DNA of 27,910 bases from a virus. Position numbers and translations under genes: made by a program. The stretch lies in the IMG/VR virus record IMGVR_UViG_3300037070_002175, positions 1-27,910 of that record; one strand, given 5' to 3'. A model generated the notes under the pieces. The model did no database searches, was not told where the DNA came from, and worked only from the letters and a program-made list of their open reading frames with translations. Shown here in pieces: positions 2,756 to 8,613 of this stretch. Numbering within the stretch: position 1 is the stretch's first letter; each line of letters starts with the position of its first letter.

Positions 2756-3523
2756 TCACGCGGTCGCGCTCTCCTCGACGGGGTGCAGAATCCCTGCCAC
2801 CCTCACCGCGATGTCTTCGAGCATCGCGGTTTCCTTCGGGGTGAGGGCCGTCAGCGAGTCGAGAACCTCGCCGATGGTCCGCAGCCGCGTGCTGTTGTTG
2901 CGTCCGGCAGGGACGTAACCAGCCTTCCTCGCAGCGGCAGGGGTGAGGGTGGTGTCGTCGCTGGTCTCACTCTTAGCCTTCGCAGCCTTCGACCCCTTCG
3001 ACCCCTTCACCTTCGACGGCTCAGCCGGGACGTAGGTCCCGCCCTTGTAGACCGCGTTCACAGCCTTCGTAATCGCGGTCTTCGAGTGAGCCTCACGGAC
3101 CGGACCAGACACGCGCTTGTCGCTGTAGACGTGCGCGAGTCGTGCCACGGTCTCCGGAGTGCAGCCCATGGCGCGAGCCTTGCCACGCAGGATCCAAGCC
3201 ACCAGCGTCGGCTGAGAGACCGGACCATCGGACACCGGAGACTGGAAACGCGGGAACGTCTCCGCGTCACCCTTGTAGTCCGCCGGAACCTGCGAGCCGT
3301 CAGCGAAGACCAGCGCGGAAACGTAGTCGCGCTGCGTGCCGAGAGGCTTGCCCCTCCCGATCAGACCAGCCTTGTCCGCCGCGTAAGCGACATCCGAAGC
3401 CTTGTCAGCGATCCCCTTCAGGGTCCCGCCCGTGGTGTTCCACTCCGCCGACACCGCAGCCACGTCCAAGAGGAACGGGGCAGGGTCCAGCGTCGTGTTC
3501 TTAACCTTGTCTGTTGCAGTCAT
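2756..3523 (-). CDS. Hypothetical protein, solitary leftward gene; candidate regulator
   Basis: The product has 255 residues. I chose ATG 3523 because AGGTG lies six bases upstream; in-frame GTGs at 3532 and 3526 are worse placed. The N-terminal two thirds mix short strands and helices; residues about 105-160 (TLVAWILRGKARAMGCTPET and on) are basic and helical and could bind DNA. A Lys/Ser/Ala linker (about 172-190) leads to a helical C-terminus. It stands alone with a long hairpin-rich leader, its own terminator and palindrome A on both sides. That context would suit a phage repressor or an abundant host-interaction protein. No known helix-turn-helix was identified with confidence, so the regulatory role is a guess. 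Confidence 0.75.
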   Translation of the reverse strand: MTATDKVKNTTLDPAPFLLDVAAVSAEWNTTGGTLKGIADKASDVAYAADKAGLIGRGKPLGTQRDYVSALVFADGSQVPADYKGDAETFPRFQSPVSDGPVSQPTLVAWILRGKARAMGCTPETVARLAHVYSDKRVSGPVREAHSKTAITKAVNAVYKGGTYVPAEPSKVKGSKGSKAAKAKSETSDDTTLTPAAARKAGYVPAGRNNSTRLRTIGEVLDSLTALTPKETAMLEDIAVRVAGILHPVEESATA

Positions 3524-3543
3524 CACTAGCACCTATCTACGCC

Positions 3544-3579
3544 GCTCAGCCGCCCCAGACTGGGGCAGTGATGCTGAGC
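3544..3579. repeat. Nested hairpin in leader of the solitary leftward gene
   Basis: The outer arms GCTCAGC (3544-3550) and GCTGAGC (3573-3579) enclose an inner perfect inverted repeat GCCCCAG-A-CTGGGGC (3552-3566). It lies 21-56 bases upstream of the ATG at 3523, inside the likely 5' leader. It could be an operator or an RNA element. Confidence 0.55.
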
Positions 3580-3590
3580 GCCGTGACCGA

Positions 3591-3619
3591 CCCCAGAGAC
3601 GCTTAGAACGGCTCTGGGG
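3591..3619. repeat. Second hairpin in leader, sharing a motif with the first
   Basis: CCCCAGAG (3591-3598) pairs with CTCTGGGG (3612-3619) across a 13-base loop. The sequence CTGGGGCAGT follows both hairpins (3560-3569 and 3615-3624), so the two look like diverged copies of one element. Confidence 0.5.
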
Positions 3620-3807
3620 CAGTCACGCACAGGTGTCTGTCTGACTGACTTCCGCTGTTGAGGTTTGCCCACGACGCGCGTTCGGTCACCATCGGCGCTT
3701 GTCCTGTCTGTCTTCGACTCGGCAGGGCTCGCGCTTGCGTCGTGAGGTTCGGCCCGGAGTCGCGATCCGGGCTAGCCCTAGGTGCTGGCTGGGTGGTGCT
3801 GGGGTGA

Positions 3808-3837
3808 ACCATCCTCCCCGTGAGTCGAGTGTGTCAA
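3808..3837 (-). promoter_or_regulatory. Possible leftward promoter for the solitary gene
   Basis: Read leftward, a perfect TTGACA (3832-3837) is followed after 18 bases by GATGGT (3808-3813). The -35 is ideal and the -10 is weak. If used, the leader before ATG 3523 would be about 280 bases and would contain both hairpins. Confidence 0.35.
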
Positions 3838-3891
3838 TACCTAGGGGCAGACTGATCTGTTTCCGCAGGTCACAGCGCTGCAAGGGCAGGC

Positions 3892-3908
3892 TGATAAGCC
3901 GCTTATCA
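3892..3908 (+). promoter_or_regulatory. Palindrome A, copy 4
   Basis: TGATAAGCCGCTTATCA is perfect and extends by one pair to CTGATAAG...CTTATCAG (3891-3909). It lies in the divergent control region, upstream of the possible leftward promoter and oriented rightward. Confidence 0.75.
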
Positions 3909-4161
3909 GGGCACCAAGCTTCGAACAAGTGTTCGACCCCGCACCCTCTCCACTCCCCAGGTGCAGCCAGCCTCACAGGGCGTTCTCTGGCAGGCCGGAT
4001 ATCCACTATCCGCACTCAATCCCGACTCACCACCCGTATTCCGTATCGGATTAGCGATTCTGGGGGCCTCCTGGCGGATCGGTGGACCTGGGGGGCGGAT
4101 CTGGGGGTGAAATCCCGGGAGGGGGCGGTTCTGTGCGTCTCTCGGGGCGACTGGCGGGTTT

Positions 4162-4176
4162 GATAAGCCGCTTATC
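4162..4176 (+). promoter_or_regulatory. Palindrome A, copy 5
   Basis: GATAAGCCGCTTATC lies 27 bases before the first rightward start codon (4204), with orientation matching rightward transcription. The TTGATA formed at its left edge resembles a -35, but no -10 follows at normal spacing, so an operator role is more likely. Confidence 0.7.
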
Positions 4177-4203
4177 GGAAGGCAACGGGTGGAGGATGGG
4201 GGT

Positions 4204-4281
4204 ATGGATCAGCTGGTGTTCACGGTTTCCGCCACGTTCCTGTTCGCGGTGGTCATGTGGTGGCGGACCAGGCATCCCTAG
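4204..4281 (+). CDS. 25-residue membrane peptide
   Basis: A short frame starts at ATG 4204 behind GGAGG. It encodes MDQLVFTVSATFLFAVVMWW followed by a basic tail RTRHP: one hydrophobic helix ended by Trp-Trp and arginines, as expected for a single-pass membrane peptide with the tail in the cytoplasm. It ends exactly where the half-site array of the RHH gene begins. The good ribosome binding site argues for it and the length argues against. An overlapping ATG at 4196 in another frame gives a less plausible product. Confidence 0.45.
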   Translation: MDQLVFTVSATFLFAVVMWWRTRHP

Positions 4282-4372
4282 GCACACTCGTGTGCCGGAG
4301 TGTGTCATCGTGTGCCGGAGTGTGCGGCACACACCAGCACACTCGTGTGCCATAGTGTGCCTATGAGCACAC
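4281..4372 (+). promoter_or_regulatory. Phased half-site array, probable RHH operator and leaderless promoter
   Basis: GTGTG occurs at 4290, 4300, 4310, 4320, 4345 and 4355, and CACAC at 4283, 4328/4330, 4338 and 4368. Spacing of exactly 10 bases at several steps puts the sites on one face of the helix. The unit CGTGTGCCGGAGTGTG is present twice (4289, 4309), and a third time at 4344 with AT in place of GG. GCACACTCGTGTGCC occurs twice (4282, 4337). There is no Shine-Dalgarno before ATG 4363, but CATAGT (4351-4356) sits where a -10 would be for transcription starting at the ATG, suggesting a leaderless mRNA whose promoter is covered by the array. Confidence 0.65.
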
Positions 4373-4647
4373 GCATCCACATCATCCTCCCCGAGGACAC
4401 CCTCAAGGAGCTGGACTCCCTGCGGGGTGCGGTCCCGAGGAGCGCCTGGGTCCGGGAACTCATCGAAGGCACCGTCCACCTCCCCCAGAACTCCAACGGC
4501 GACCTCAACGGTGTCGCACACCTTCCCGTCACGACCCAGGTCGACCTCGACGACCCCACCAATACCCCCAAGGACGGACACATCCACAGGCGGGTCGGGA
4601 AGATCGGGCAGAAACACTGCCGCCAGTGCAAGATGCCGATGCCATGA
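4363..4647 (+). CDS. Ribbon-helix-helix DNA-binding protein
   Basis: The product has 94 residues. Residues 3-38 (TRIHIILPEDTLKELDSL, then a Ser/Ala/Arg helix ending RELIEG) fit the CopG/Arc-type RHH fold: a strand that enters the DNA major groove followed by two helices, active as a dimer. The remaining 55 residues are polar and end with HCRQCKMPMP, a short Cys pair. The start lies directly at the end of an array of 10-bp-phased half-sites, typical of co-operative, autoregulated RHH repressors. It overlaps the next gene, also RHH-like, by four bases. The fold is fairly sure; autoregulation is inferred from the array. Confidence 0.8.
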   Translation: MSTRIHIILPEDTLKELDSLRGAVPRSAWVRELIEGTVHLPQNSNGDLNGVAHLPVTTQVDLDDPTNTPKDGHIHRRVGKIGQKHCRQCKMPMP

Positions 4648-4817
4648 GCCCCCGGATCAACTTCCGCCTCGCACCCTCCGGGTTGCAGTGGATCGAGGAC
4701 CTCCAAGTCCTCCCCGGACTCGAAGACGCCGACAAGTCCGACATCATCCGGGCGGCGCTCGTCGTCGCACGACGACACGAACCCGAACTCATCGAGACCA
4801 TCAAGGAGCAGATGTGA
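4644..4817 (+). CDS. Second small ribbon-helix-helix protein
   Basis: The product has 57 residues, starting at the ATG (4644) that overlaps the previous stop (ATGA). It begins MSPRINFRLAPSGLQWIEDL, an RHH-type strand followed by a helix, then DKSDIIRAALVVARRH as second helix. The whole protein is about one RHH domain. Two adjacent RHH genes suggest a pair of related regulators, or subunits that could form mixed dimers on the upstream array. Function beyond DNA binding is not visible. Confidence 0.75.
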   Translation: MSPRINFRLAPSGLQWIEDLQVLPGLEDADKSDIIRAALVVARRHEPELIETIKEQM

Positions 4818-5098
4818 ACAACAAGGCCCCCGTTACCAGGACCACGAAGAAGACTGTCAACGCCGCACCCGAGCCTCAGGTGCTCACCGAGGAGGACTAC
4901 CAGATCGACCTCCCCCAGGTGATGCAGGCGGTGGGCGTGGACCCCAACACCGTCAAGGCCGAGTCCGCACACGTCGCGTTCCGCAACGGGGTAGCCATCC
5001 TCGAGTACACCGTCGTCAGAGCAGTACCTCCCCACATCCTCGGCCTCGCACTCATGCGGGGCGCACACAAAGGAGAAGCAGGTGAACAGCAAGGCTGA
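4814..5098 (+). CDS. Hypothetical protein, GTG start
   Basis: The product has 94 residues. GTG 4814 has AAGGAG five bases upstream and overlaps the TGA of the RHH gene (GTGA). The N-terminus is basic and disordered (VNNKAPVTRTTKKTV); the rest (LTEEDYQIDLPQVMQAVGVD, then a beta-rich HVAFRNGVAILEYTVV) looks like a small alpha/beta domain. It is co-transcribed with the RHH genes. No family is recognised. Confidence 0.7.
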   Translation: MNNKAPVTRTTKKTVNAAPEPQVLTEEDYQIDLPQVMQAVGVDPNTVKAESAHVAFRNGVAILEYTVVRAVPPHILGLALMRGAHKGEAGEQQG

Positions 5099-5234
5099 GG
5101 TCGTCGTCCACGGCCAGAGGGTCGGCGAGCACGTCCTCGTCGAGTGCTCCCTCTGCGGACCGGTCGGCATCCACAAGGCCCCCATGTACACCGCCATCGA
5201 GACCCACGCCCAAGAGCACAAGGAGGAACAGTGA
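5082..5234 (+). CDS. Small zinc-finger-like protein
   Basis: The product has 50 residues. GTG 5082 lies six bases after AAGGAG, and the frame overlaps the previous gene by 17 bases. The protein carries CSLC followed 17 residues later by HAQEH, a C-x2-C...H-x3-H pattern typical of a single zinc finger. It ends with a GTGA overlap into the next gene. It may bind DNA, RNA or a protein; the pattern alone cannot say which. Confidence 0.7.
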   Translation: MNSKAEVVVHGQRVGEHVLVECSLCGPVGIHKAPMYTAIETHAQEHKEEQ

Positions 5235-5425
5235 AGGTCACCGTCACCGAAGTAGCCATCACCGACGACGAAGGACGCGAGGTGCGAGCACGTCTCGAAC
5301 CCGGACCGGACGGCAAGGACCAGTGGCGCGTCATCCCGCCCCTCGGGTCAGGAAGGGACGCCGAACTCATCTGGGCCAAGACCGCGAAGGCCAGGGACAC
5401 CGAGGCGAAGAAGCTGATGAAGTGA
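5231..5425 (+). CDS. Hypothetical small protein
   Basis: The product has 64 residues, starting at GTG 5231 with AGGAGG upstream and a four-base overlap with the preceding stop. Beta-rich N-terminus (VKVTVTEVAITDDEGREVRA), then a Trp-containing middle and a Lys/Ala-rich helix at the C-terminus. It lies in a chain of overlapping small genes ahead of the terminase. No function is assigned. Confidence 0.65.
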   Translation: MKVTVTEVAITDDEGREVRARLEPGPDGKDQWRVIPPLGSGRDAELIWAKTAKARDTEAKKLMK

Positions 5426-5634
5426 AGCGCTTCCACCTGGAGCGCGAAGTCGATGTCTCCGGGATCAGCGGAGTAGGCACGGTCGCCCACGGCATCCAGT
5501 TCCCGGACGGCACCGTCGCCATCCGATGGTCCGCAGGCGATCACCACTCCACGGTGGTGTGGGACTCCATGTCCTCCGTCGTCGCCATCCACGGCCACAA
5601 CGGAGCCACCCGGATCGTGTGGTGGGACTCATGA
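5422..5634 (+). CDS. Hypothetical small beta-rich protein
   Basis: The product has 70 residues, starting at GTG 5422, which overlaps the previous TGA (GTGA). The sequence is almost entirely short beta strands with His, Gly and Trp (GIQFPDGTVAIRWSAGDHHS), suggesting a small barrel or sandwich. Its stop overlaps the ATG of the next membrane protein gene. No family is recognised. Confidence 0.65.
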   Translation: MKRFHLEREVDVSGISGVGTVAHGIQFPDGTVAIRWSAGDHHSTVVWDSMSSVVAIHGHNGATRIVWWDS

Positions 5635-5741
5635 GCGAACTGATCCTGCTCACCCTCTGCGTGCTCCTGGTCCTCGGCGGCATCGTCGGCCTCATCGCCC
5701 TCTCCCTCGCGCTGCGCGAGATGTTCGGGAGGGAAGGCTGA
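5631..5741 (+). CDS. 36-residue membrane protein
   Basis: The ATG at 5631 overlaps the previous stop (ATGA) and the stop overlaps the next ATG by one base (TGATG). The product has one long hydrophobic helix (LILLTLCVLLVLGGIVGLIA) and a short charged tail (LREMFGREG). It is a probable single-pass membrane peptide, one of several scattered through the early-type genes of this phage. Role unknown. Confidence 0.65.
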   Translation: MSELILLTLCVLLVLGGIVGLIALSLALREMFGREG

Positions 5742-6064
5742 TGGACGCCCGCAAGTTGTACTTCGAGGCCCAGACCGAAGCGGACTACCAGAAGAAGATC
5801 ACCGACTACTGCGACCTCCACGGACTCAAGTGGCACCACGAGACCGACAGCCGGAAGTCCAAGAAGGGCTGGCCCGACCTCGTGATAGCCGGCCACAAGG
5901 ACGTGATCTTCGTGGAGGTGAAGAAGGAGAAGGGCACCGTCACCCTCGACCAGAAGGAATGGCTCGAGAAACTCAAGTCCGCCGGAGCCACCACCTACAT
6001 CTGGCGACCCTCCGACTGGGTGGTGGCCGAGCGCATCCTCAAACGCCTCGCCCGGGATGCGTAG
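5741..6064 (+). CDS. VRR-NUC family nuclease
   Basis: The product has 107 residues. It matches the VRR-NUC pattern of the PD-(D/E)xK nuclease superfamily: an N-terminal helix with E13, then GWPDLVIA with catalytic Asp46, EVK with Glu59 and Lys61, and a conserved Gln71, followed by the family-typical helix and a WRPSDW end. Stand-alone phage members are short like this one and are thought to cut branched DNA, such as Holliday or replication junctions. Its place ten bases before the terminase genes suggests clearing branches before packaging, which is an inference. Confidence 0.85.
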   Translation: MDARKLYFEAQTEADYQKKITDYCDLHGLKWHHETDSRKSKKGWPDLVIAGHKDVIFVEVKKEKGTVTLDQKEWLEKLKSAGATTYIWRPSDWVVAERILKRLARDA

Positions 6065-6073
6065 TCTTCTGCC

Positions 6074-6634
6074 ATGGCGATCATCCAGGACTCCTCCCAC
6101 CCCACAGGCGTCACATCCACCGACAACGGAGGATCGAGCCTCGCCCGCGCACGCGCGAGGAAAGCATCAGCGGCCCTCGCCCTGCGGAAGAACAACGAGT
6201 CCTGGGAGGACATCGCCAGGGAACTCGGCTACCCCACACCACGAGCGGCGCTCATCGCGGTGGAGGGTGCGCTCGAAGCAGGGCTCGCCACCCCCGAGTC
6301 CCAGGACTTCATGCGCCAGATGGCCAGCGAGCAACTCCGCAGACTGCTCTACCCCACGATGAAGAAGGCCACCGACTCCGACGACCCCGACCAGTTGACA
6401 GCAGTCGGCAAGGCGAGGGAACTCGTCATGGACCACGCGAAGCTCAACGGGTACATGGCGCCCGCAGAACTCTCCATCTACAACCCTGCCGCCGGAGAGA
6501 TCGAACAGTTCGTCGCGGCCATCCTCCACGACCGCCAGCCCAGCACCCTGGAGGAAGCGGACATCTTCGAGTTGCACGAGGACGAGGACGGCACCTGGAC
6601 CACGGAGACCGAAGATGCCGTTCCGACTGAATGA
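6074..6634 (+). CDS. terS: Probable terminase small subunit
   Basis: The product has 186 residues. Residues 35-67 (RKNNESWEDIARELGYPTPR and on) resemble a helix-turn-helix of the type used by terminase small subunits to bind packaging sites. A helical middle (about 75-130) would suit ring formation, and the C-terminus is acidic. It precedes the large terminase with only small genes between. The role is to recognise the packaging site and hand DNA to the motor. Assignment rests on the HTH, size and position. Confidence 0.7.
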   Translation: MAIIQDSSHPTGVTSTDNGGSSLARARARKASAALALRKNNESWEDIARELGYPTPRAALIAVEGALEAGLATPESQDFMRQMASEQLRRLLYPTMKKATDSDDPDQLTAVGKARELVMDHAKLNGYMAPAELSIYNPAAGEIEQFVAAILHDRQPSTLEEADIFELHEDEDGTWTTETEDAVPTE

Positions 6635-6896
6635 CGAACGCGCCAAGATCCAGTGGGTCACCTACGCCGAGATGCCCCACCAGATCTACCAGGCCTGTCT
6701 CGCCAAGGGGACCGTCTCCAACACCCGCTACATCCAGGAAGCGGTCTGCAAGGCCCTTGCCGAAGACCTCGGCATCCCCTACACCTCGCTCCTGTCACGC
6801 CTCCCACCCAGCAAGGGGAACGCCGCCACCCTGTTCGACAAGGACCGCAAAGCCGCCGCCCGGGGAAGGCACCACACCCAAGAACAGGTGCGATAG
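6615..6896 (+). CDS. Hypothetical protein between terminase genes
   Basis: The product has 93 residues. The ATG at 6615 lies inside the end of the previous gene (20-base overlap). The protein is helical in its middle (YIQEAVCKALAEDLGIPYTS) with a basic C-terminus. Position between terminase subunits suggests a link to packaging, but no domain is recognised. Confidence 0.7.
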   Translation: MPFRLNDERAKIQWVTYAEMPHQIYQACLAKGTVSNTRYIQEAVCKALAEDLGIPYTSLLSRLPPSKGNAATLFDKDRKAAARGRHHTQEQVR

Positions 6897-6922: not shown

Positions 6923-7117
6923 ATGGCCAAGGTGCGGTACACCACCCGGTGCGCGAGATGCAGGAAGCGTCTGCCCTCCGGCGCCCAGGCCACCCACCTC
7001 CACGGCGGATGGTGGTGCGGCCCATGCCTGATAGCGCACAAGCCACAGTGCCGGACGTACGCGGAGCCGTCGACCGCTTCAAGCGGTGGAGGCCTGCTGC
7101 TCAGGAGCAGGCACTAG
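6923..7117 (+). CDS. Small zinc-ribbon protein overlapping the terL start
   Basis: The product has 64 residues, starting at ATG 6923 (CTGGAG upstream). It has CARC near residue 10 and CGPC near residue 33, a two-knuckle zinc ribbon, with GGWWC between. The last 22 codons are low-complexity (SSGGGLLLRSRH) and overlap the proposed terL start by 94 bases in another frame. The first 43 residues look truly coding. Either terL starts further downstream than I place it, or the overlap is real. Confidence 0.55.
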   Translation: MAKVRYTTRCARCRKRLPSGAQATHLHGGWWCGPCLIAHKPQCRTYAEPSTASSGGGLLLRSRH

Positions 7118-8613
7118 CAGCGGTCCGCGCCGCCGAACTCGCGGACTGGCACCCCTTCTACTGCACCAACACCAGGTGCAACGGCCAGCCCCACGTCTGG
7201 CCCGCCGACGAGAGGGAGTGCCCCAAGCCCTTCGGCCACGAGTGGCACCTCATCGAGGACACCTGGGCCTGCGCCGACCCCTTGGGACAGGACGACGAGC
7301 ACTTCTGCGGAGTGGTCGGCACCCTGCTGGACGACTGGGACTTCGGCCACGCCCGCACCGACCAGCGCCCACCGCCCTGGAAGAAGGACTGGCTCACCCT
7401 GTTCATGCGCGGAGGTAGAGGATCCGGCAAGACCAGGACAGGCTCCGAGATCACCAACCGCGTCACCAACCTCGTCCCCCGCATCACCCTCATCGGCCCC
7501 ACCGGACCCGACTTCCGCAACCTCATGATCGAGGGCGAGTCGGGGATCCTCGCCACCTCGCCCCCCGGCAAGCGTCCCCAGTGGGAACCCTCCAAGAAGC
7601 GACTCACCTGGCCCAACGGGTGCATCGCCGAAGGCTACTCAGCCGAGGAGCCCGACCGACTGCGAGGGCAGAACTCCTCGTTCATCTGGGCCGACGAGCC
7701 CGCCCACTGGGACCTCGTGCGGCAGTGCTGGGACAACATGTTGTTCGGTCTGCGGAAGGGCGACTACCCCAAGATCCTCGCCTCCTCCACACCCAAGCCC
7801 ACCGAGTGGGTCAAGGAGCAACTCAAGGATGACTTCACGATCGACCGCGTGGTCCCCACCTACGCCAACATGTCCAACCTGTCTCCCGTGTTCCGCCGCA
7901 TCATCATCGACCGGTTCGAGGGCACCCGCCTCGGGAAGCAGGAGCTGTACGGAGAGATCCTCGACGACGTGGAAGGCTCCATGTGGAAGTGGGAGATGCT
8001 CCGCTACACCAAGACCGAGGACGTGCCCGAACTCACCCGCATCGTCGTCGGCATCGACCCAGCCGGCACCGCCAACAAGAGGTCGGACGAGACCGGGCTC
8101 ATCATCGTCGGCATCGGCATCGACAAGAACTTCTACGTCCTGGCCGACCACACCGGCAAGTACTCCCCCGAGGGTTGGGGGTCTCTCGCCAACCAGCAGT
8201 ACGTCGAGTACCGCGCCGACGCCATCGTCCCCGAGGTCAACTTCGGGGAGGACATGGTGACCTTCGTCCTCGAGAACACGATCAACAACAAGGACCTGAT
8301 GCCCCGCATCATCGGCGCCAGGTCGAGGAGGGGTAAGAGCATCCGGGCCGAACCCATCGTCGCGCTCTACGAGAAGGGCAGGGTGTTCCACGTCGGGGAC
8401 GACAGGGGCTCCCTGGAGAAGCTGGACGACGAACTCTGCACCTGGGTGCCCGGAGAGGGCGCATCCCCCAACCGGGTCGACGCCCTGGTGCACGCCATGA
8501 CCGAGATCGGCAAGGTCGCCCTGCCTGCCGCGTTCGCGTTCCCCGGCGAACTCAAGGGTCAGGCGGCACTCCCCCTGCGCGGGCGTCCCCCGTTCGGGCG
8601 CACATATCCCTAG
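7024..8613 (+). CDS. terL: Terminase large subunit
   Basis: The product has 529 residues from ATG 7024. Residues 130-137 (GGRGSGKT) are the Walker A loop, 221-225 (IWADE) the Walker B segment with catalytic Glu225, and the C-terminal RNase H-like nuclease shows GIDPAGT with Asp345 and RVDALVHA with Asp486. This is the ATP-driven motor and cutter that fills the prohead through the portal. An N-terminal Cys-containing region (CTNTRC and on, about residues 42-100) precedes the ATPase and may bind zinc. The exact start is uncertain: in-frame starts also exist at 6949, 6958, 7009 and 7048, and the chosen one lacks a strong ribosome binding site. Confidence 0.92.
   Translation: MPDSAQATVPDVRGAVDRFKRWRPAAQEQALAAVRAAELADWHPFYCTNTRCNGQPHVWPADERECPKPFGHEWHLIEDTWACADPLGQDDEHFCGVVGTLLDDWDFGHARTDQRPPPWKKDWLTLFMRGGRGSGKTRTGSEITNRVTNLVPRITLIGPTGPDFRNLMIEGESGILATSPPGKRPQWEPSKKRLTWPNGCIAEGYSAEEPDRLRGQNSSFIWADEPAHWDLVRQCWDNMLFGLRKGDYPKILASSTPKPTEWVKEQLKDDFTIDRVVPTYANMSNLSPVFRRIIIDRFEGTRLGKQELYGEILDDVEGSMWKWEMLRYTKTEDVPELTRIVVGIDPAGTANKRSDETGLIIVGIGIDKNFYVLADHTGKYSPEGWGSLANQQYVEYRADAIVPEVNFGEDMVTFVLENTINNKDLMPRIIGARSRRGKSIRAEPIVALYEKGRVFHVGDDRGSLEKLDDELCTWVPGEGASPNRVDALVHAMTEIGKVALPAAFAFPGELKGQAALPLRGRPPFGRTYP

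Follow-up and report, generated by a model that had tools for sequence, protein, structure and literature searches.

What a dense run of short repeats is doing across the start codon of a small phage gene was the question raised by this locus. The window, i.e. the whole stretch of DNA analysed, is a 27.9-kb virus record whose host is probably a soil actinobacterium. By terminase, its nearest named relatives are siphovirus-like phages of Arthrobacter, Curtobacterium, Microbacterium and Gordonia, all at <60% identity. One other contig was identical to the window over the 9.6 kb compared and runs further left; it does not count as independent evidence. Since only this identical contig exists for the window itself, the idea of an operator array was tested on relatives gathered by terminase-guided searches of viral contigs, with the window's terminase large subunit (6949–8613, +) as the query.

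When RHH1, the ribbon-helix-helix (RHH) protein encoded at the repeats, was used alone as query against viral contigs and phage records, only the identical contig and chance matches came back. A match in Lysobacterales (L011) was rejected as chance: it was short, lay within an apparent long secretion-type protein and came without an array. With the RHH protein of the relative L157 as query, only itself was returned, and the RHH alignment A2 was too diverse to serve in a contig scan. Away from the locus, the window encodes a long protein (21736–24729) with near-identical repeats of ~22 aa (LDTENAHTSDSPAITQVHAIEP-like) and a DNA period of 66 bp, while the left extension of the identical contig (L140, 505–1356) encodes an ArdC-type anti-restriction protein with a zincin-like peptidase domain.

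The GTGTG/CACAC array

The leftward genes of the window end near 3532 and the rightward genes begin at 4363, leaving a control region of ~830 bp with the array at its right edge (4281–4373). The array comprises ten distinct GTGTG/CACAC half-sites within 90 bp, in both orientations and mostly in 10-bp steps, with the consensus GTGTGCC. GTGTG was found at 4290, 4300, 4310, 4320, 4345 and 4355, and CACAC at 4283, 4328/4330 (overlapping registers), 4338 and 4368. Six of the steps are exactly 10 bp (4290-4300-4310-4320-4330, 4328-4338 and 4345-4355), in agreement with the original prediction of at least nine half-sites, several of them 10 bp apart. Two identical copies of a 15-mer palindromic unit, GCACACTCGTGTGCC, lie 55 bp apart at 4282–4296 and 4337–4351, the second supplying the TG of the predicted extended −10 described below. 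More generally, 15-mers are repeated within the array at 20 and 55 bp, and the spacers vary between the half-sites while the half-sites stay the same. The last half-site, GCACAC (4367–4372), is coded by codons 2–4 of RHH1, and GTGTGC-CTATGA-GCACAC spans the RHH1 start codon.

The array is real and far above chance. With overlapping hits counted, it holds 11 motif hits per 92 bp, whereas the highest count among 200 copies of the whole window simulated by a fourth-order Markov model was 5. The densest hexamer cluster of the window is GCACAC, present nine times in 90 bp (Poisson tail 4e-16). Six exact copies of GTGTGCC fall inside the array against four elsewhere in the 27.9 kb; this is a concentration in the array and not the stoperator-like dispersal of the Cluster A type. 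A scan for four 10-bp-phased GTGTG words gave more than 100 viral stretches, largely simple tandem repeats, and among those inspected none preceded an RHH start except that of the window's phage. Such phased words also occurred in ten unrelated viral contigs (L024, L027, L036, L038, L040, L048, L056, L102, L131 and L133), mostly followed by GACCATTTGAGCATAGCCT-like sequence and with no recognised RHH gene.

Two other features of the control region were recorded. A 25-aa hydrophobic ORF (MDQLVFTVSATFLFAVVMWWRTRHP) with a GGAGG site occupies 4204–4281, immediately 5′ of the array. Separately, a perfect 15-bp palindrome, GATAAGCSGCTTATC, occurs seven times in the window (1525, 2425, 2632, 3893, 4162, 14097 and 27135; expected 0.14), and twice more in the part of the identical contig that runs further left. 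This dispersed palindrome looks like the operator of another regulator.

RHH1, RHH2 and their family

RHH1 (4363–4647, +) is a 94-aa protein with R4, H6 and I8 at the base-contact positions of CopG. An alternative in-frame GTG start exists at 4300; the homologues nonetheless begin at ATG. The second gene, RHH2 (4644–4817, +), encodes a 57-aa RHH-like protein with homologues in L223, L245 and L230, and overlaps RHH1 by four bases (ATGA, 4644–4647), as the original prediction had stated.

Neither protein reached the Pfam RHH cut-off singly, so that membership needs a family profile, and the original assignment of both genes to the RHH class stood by profile and comparison but not by Pfam. Against PHROGs, RHH1 matched a repressor family weakly (E 0.002). 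An iterated profile collected 21 relatives of RHH1 at E below 1e-10, although the values for seed members are good by construction; independent support came from phmmer (2e-8 for the second gene of L252 and 1.5e-4 for L251). A profile of 24 members matched 10 PDB sequences (E 1.4e-4 to 0.68), the informatively named ones being CopG, NikR, a CopG-family protein, MazE7 and MazE9, with three unnamed or designed. In the reverse direction, Pfam RHH_1 matched 5 of the 24 members, below cut-off. Taken as sequence evidence, these comparisons support RHH1 as a member of the RHH/MetJ/Arc superfamily. The single-sequence AlphaFold model of RHH1 had a mean pLDDT of 39.5; that of RHH2 (pLDDT 68) had helices at 13–21 and 31–45 and gave few structural matches, with no RHH chain among them. 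Neither model is counted as evidence on the fold.

The RHH genes of the relatives occupy the same place, upstream of the terminases, and the twin arrangement that had been pointed out in the window recurs as tandem RHH pairs in seven of them (L252, L251, L275, L232, L245, L230 and L152). The RHH1 tail carries an HxH...CxxC motif (4579–4629, +; from the alignment), and all 8 long homologues aligned (alignment A4) have CxxC near the C-terminus, usually after HxH. Possibly, this tail binds zinc.

A predicted leaderless start

The ATG at 4363 has no Shine–Dalgarno sequence. A predicted extended −10, TGC-CATAGT (4348–4356, +), ends 6 nt (GTGCCT) before it, which would place the transcription start at 4363 (+), the first base of the start codon. 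Comparable boxes were found in the relatives, where TANNNT ends 6–7 nt before an in-frame ATG or GTG in 13 of the 21 related RHH genes. The same strict box and gap occur in 2.4% of 2739 background ORFs, giving a binomial tail of ~1e-16 that is nominal and overstates independence, as the relatives share ancestry. When the gap was shifted to 2–5 or 8–13 nt, 0 or 1 of the 21 genes matched. Allowing C at box position 1 raised the count to 16 of 21 (5.4% of background ORFs) by adding the window, L007 and L171. By eye, L009 has CAGAAT with a 7-nt gap.

The −10 of the window itself, CATAGT, is imperfect in lacking the first T and is a weaker case than those of the relatives. In addition, a second hexamer, TAGTGT, overlaps this box with a gap of just 4 nt to the ATG, leaving the exact start uncertain by a base or two. 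For both reasons the leaderless call rests more on the relatives than on the window. The leaderless start proposed originally is supported, though not proven, by the spacing in the relatives and the missing Shine–Dalgarno sequence, less so by the window's own box; across the phage group such a start looks conserved.

An alternative is that transcription starts upstream, for example near the palindrome at 4162 and serving the 25-aa ORF, and that the array acts within a 5′ leader as RNA hairpins or a roadblock. The position of this ORF and its GGAGG site directly 5′ of the array would fit, as would the mutual complementarity of parts of the array. However, the spacing between −10 and start codon is conserved in the relatives, no sigma-70 consensus promoter was found at 3500–5300, and a leadered mRNA would find no Shine–Dalgarno sequence to use at 4363. 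Such an upstream start was considered unlikely.

Putative operator arrays and predicted contact residues in the relatives

In the first six relatives, a look at upstream direct repeats gave no array, which told against the idea until closer relatives were reached. A word repeated at least four times and not reproduced by shuffles was found at 5 of 31 RHH starts, i.e. those of the window, L270, L242, the second gene of L275 and L157. The arrays of the four relatives consist of TGTACACA (five copies in L270 and four in L242), GATATCAC (four copies, L275) and CGTATACG (five copies, L157), each unmatched in 200 dinucleotide shuffles. A threefold 8-mer was present at the L240 and L245 RHH starts. 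Most relatives have a dyad at most, and the array is therefore not a constant part of the locus.

The array words are nearly confined to the promoters concerned. For TGTACACAC, the word of two relatives, 4 of 4 copies in a 59.8-kb record lie ≤140 bp from the RHH start and 5 of 5 copies in a 9-kb record lie at the RHH gene; the five copies of L270 all fall within 85 bp. In L275, GATATCAC is likewise almost restricted to the promoter of its RHH gene, and so is GTATACG in L157, apart from additional copies immediately 3′ of that gene. The word extends across the start codon in several cases, as GTACATGTAC does in L242 and L252. The original prediction of an autoregulatory circuit was borne out to the extent that relatives appear to carry arrays over their own RHH promoters, with words nearly confined there; autoregulation is supported on these grounds, not proven. 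Far above chance, largely confined to the RHH promoter and paralleled in the relatives, the array is probably an operator.

Hexamer clusters in L151, L174, L194, L199 and L206 were rejected, as they did not precede recognised RHH genes. In L151 (493–588), GGTAAG occurs six times in 96 bp near a divergent gene, these being all the copies that the locus has. In the relative L152, another dispersed palindrome, GTTCAGTNACTGAAC-like, surrounds the RHH genes, at 136, 282 and ~645.

The residues expected to contact the operator were mapped from an alignment with CopG, in which R4, T6 and T8 are the residues we take to face the bases. The closest homologue of RHH1 is the second gene of L252 (20 of 36 residues identical), which shares the predicted contacts R4 and H6. 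The predicted contacts are R,H,I in the window and R,H,Y in this L252 gene, and GTGTGCC is adjacent to the start in each. In L270 and L242 the predicted contacts are R,D,R and the word is GTACACAC; the first gene of L252 (R,E,R) has the word GTACGTAC, with TGTACGTACA present twice. Across 2.2 kb of the terminase region, the DNA of L242 is 82% identical to that of L252, and the word has therefore changed between close relatives. Across three very small groups, the operator word seems to follow the predicted contact residues, a pattern that an autorepressor predicts.

This pattern bears on a second alternative, that the array is bound by a different regulator, either another phage repressor or a host protein, with the RHH genes as mere targets. 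Binding by RHH1 is itself a prediction, and the GATAAGCSGCTTATC copy at 4162 indicates that another regulator may act nearby. Among the relatives, however, the word varies together with the predicted RHH contacts and occurs almost only at RHH promoters, which makes an outside regulator improbable.

The operon downstream of the array

From RHH1 to 6896 the genes overlap or nearly abut, continuing to the terminase. RHH1 and RHH2 are followed by the rest of an apparently co-transcribed operon (4814–6896, +) of overlapping small ORFs, including a VRR-NUC nuclease (5741–6064, +) and then a gene in the position of the small terminase subunit (6074–6634, +), before the large subunit. A promoter at RHH1 would drive packaging and then structural genes, so that the most likely role of the array, judged from gene order, would be a self-limiting gate on this operon. 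Neither tyrosine nor serine integrases were found, and lysogeny is therefore not indicated, with the reservation that the records may be incomplete.

The arrangement also invites comparison with plasmid partition. RHH proteins on arrays of short repeats overlapping their own promoters are already known from omega (ParB) of pSM19035 and from ParR/parC, and the 10-bp direct repeats bound by pB171 ParR and the mixed half-site orientations of omega both have counterparts in the window (PMC9426499, PMC9499535). The array could accordingly be a centromere or copy-control site at which the RHH protein recruits an NTPase to segregate or count the genome. Unlike the contiguous 7-bp units of omega, those of the window are 10-bp, and no replicon functions were seen. 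No ParA-type ATPase was found in any of 11 records (the window, the identical contig and nine relatives of up to 62.7 kb, which may be fragments), whereas the control for this search was positive in 14 of 14 genomes; a ParM search also gave no match, but its control was negative everywhere, so that this search carries no information. The operon, among whose genes none for replication was recognised, leads to a VRR-NUC nuclease and the terminase, and a single dyad, as in some relatives, would hardly make a centromere. A centromere or copy-control site was thus judged very improbable, and the copy-control module offered in the original prediction is not supported; the other option offered there, a switch, may apply. 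Neutral tandem duplication, to which the internal 15-mer repeats and the GTGTG tandem repeats of many viral contigs might point, is hardly credible given half-sites kept in both orientations among varying spacers, unlike the uniform arrays of those contigs, and arrays of unrelated words before the RHH genes of relatives.

A proposed self-repressing operon gate

The array is thus probably a multi-copy operator bound by RHH1, and perhaps by RHH2 as well. It would overlie a leaderless extended −10 promoter from which the rightward operon towards the terminase is transcribed. RHH dimers would occupy the 10-bp-phased half-sites co-operatively, all on the same side of the DNA helix and perhaps with the palindromic GCACACTCGTGTGCC units filled first, so that bound protein would lie over the −35 region, the −10 box and also the start codon. 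Once enough RHH protein had been made, the operon would switch itself down. Binding and its co-operativity, repression, the precise point at which transcription starts and a role in timing the packaging and structural genes are what we infer from this arrangement.

Autoregulation is a standard property of RHH proteins. As in CopG, Arc/Mnt and other RHH autorepressors, a small strand-helix-helix protein is encoded directly behind operators that overlap its own promoter. Unlike CopG and Arc/Mnt, the window has ten half-sites reaching over the start codon, a predicted leaderless mRNA and a CxxC tail; its RHH gene heads an operon to packaging genes, and the word differs between close relatives. 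In Cluster O mycobacteriophages, too, a divergent intergenic region lies ~5 kb from the left end, leaderless promoters are predicted on either side of it, and dispersed palindromes occur, whereas in the available text of PMC4351075 the term 'ribbon' is absent and no start-codon operator array is described. RHH genes are annotated upstream of the terminase in the Microbacterium phages BirdInFrench and OneinaGillian, and the gene in this position in the Curtobacterium phages Sunfish and Kithara is annotated 'DNA binding protein'. The genes of BirdInFrench, Sunfish and Kithara belong to the same family as RHH1, with −10-like boxes that end 7 nt short of the start codon; unlike in the window, no multi-copy array was found at them. 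Searches of open-access papers turned up neither the combination of array, leaderless start and RHH gene, nor its spread through a group of phages, nor the rapid turnover of the word.

The array is proposed as a point at which actinobacterial phages would control their late genes, and no description of such a point was found in the open literature searched. More tentatively, the phage group as a whole may possess fast-diverging, self-repressing RHH proteins whose private arrays across a leaderless start codon gate the packaging/structural operon. If true, close relatives would carry mutually blind late-gene switches, resembling immunity types but acting on late genes. In any case, one phage group offers a natural series, in which the kind of regulator and its place are the same, the word has changed several times and the leaderless layout is kept, making the rules of RHH recognition and the evolution of operator specificity directly testable.
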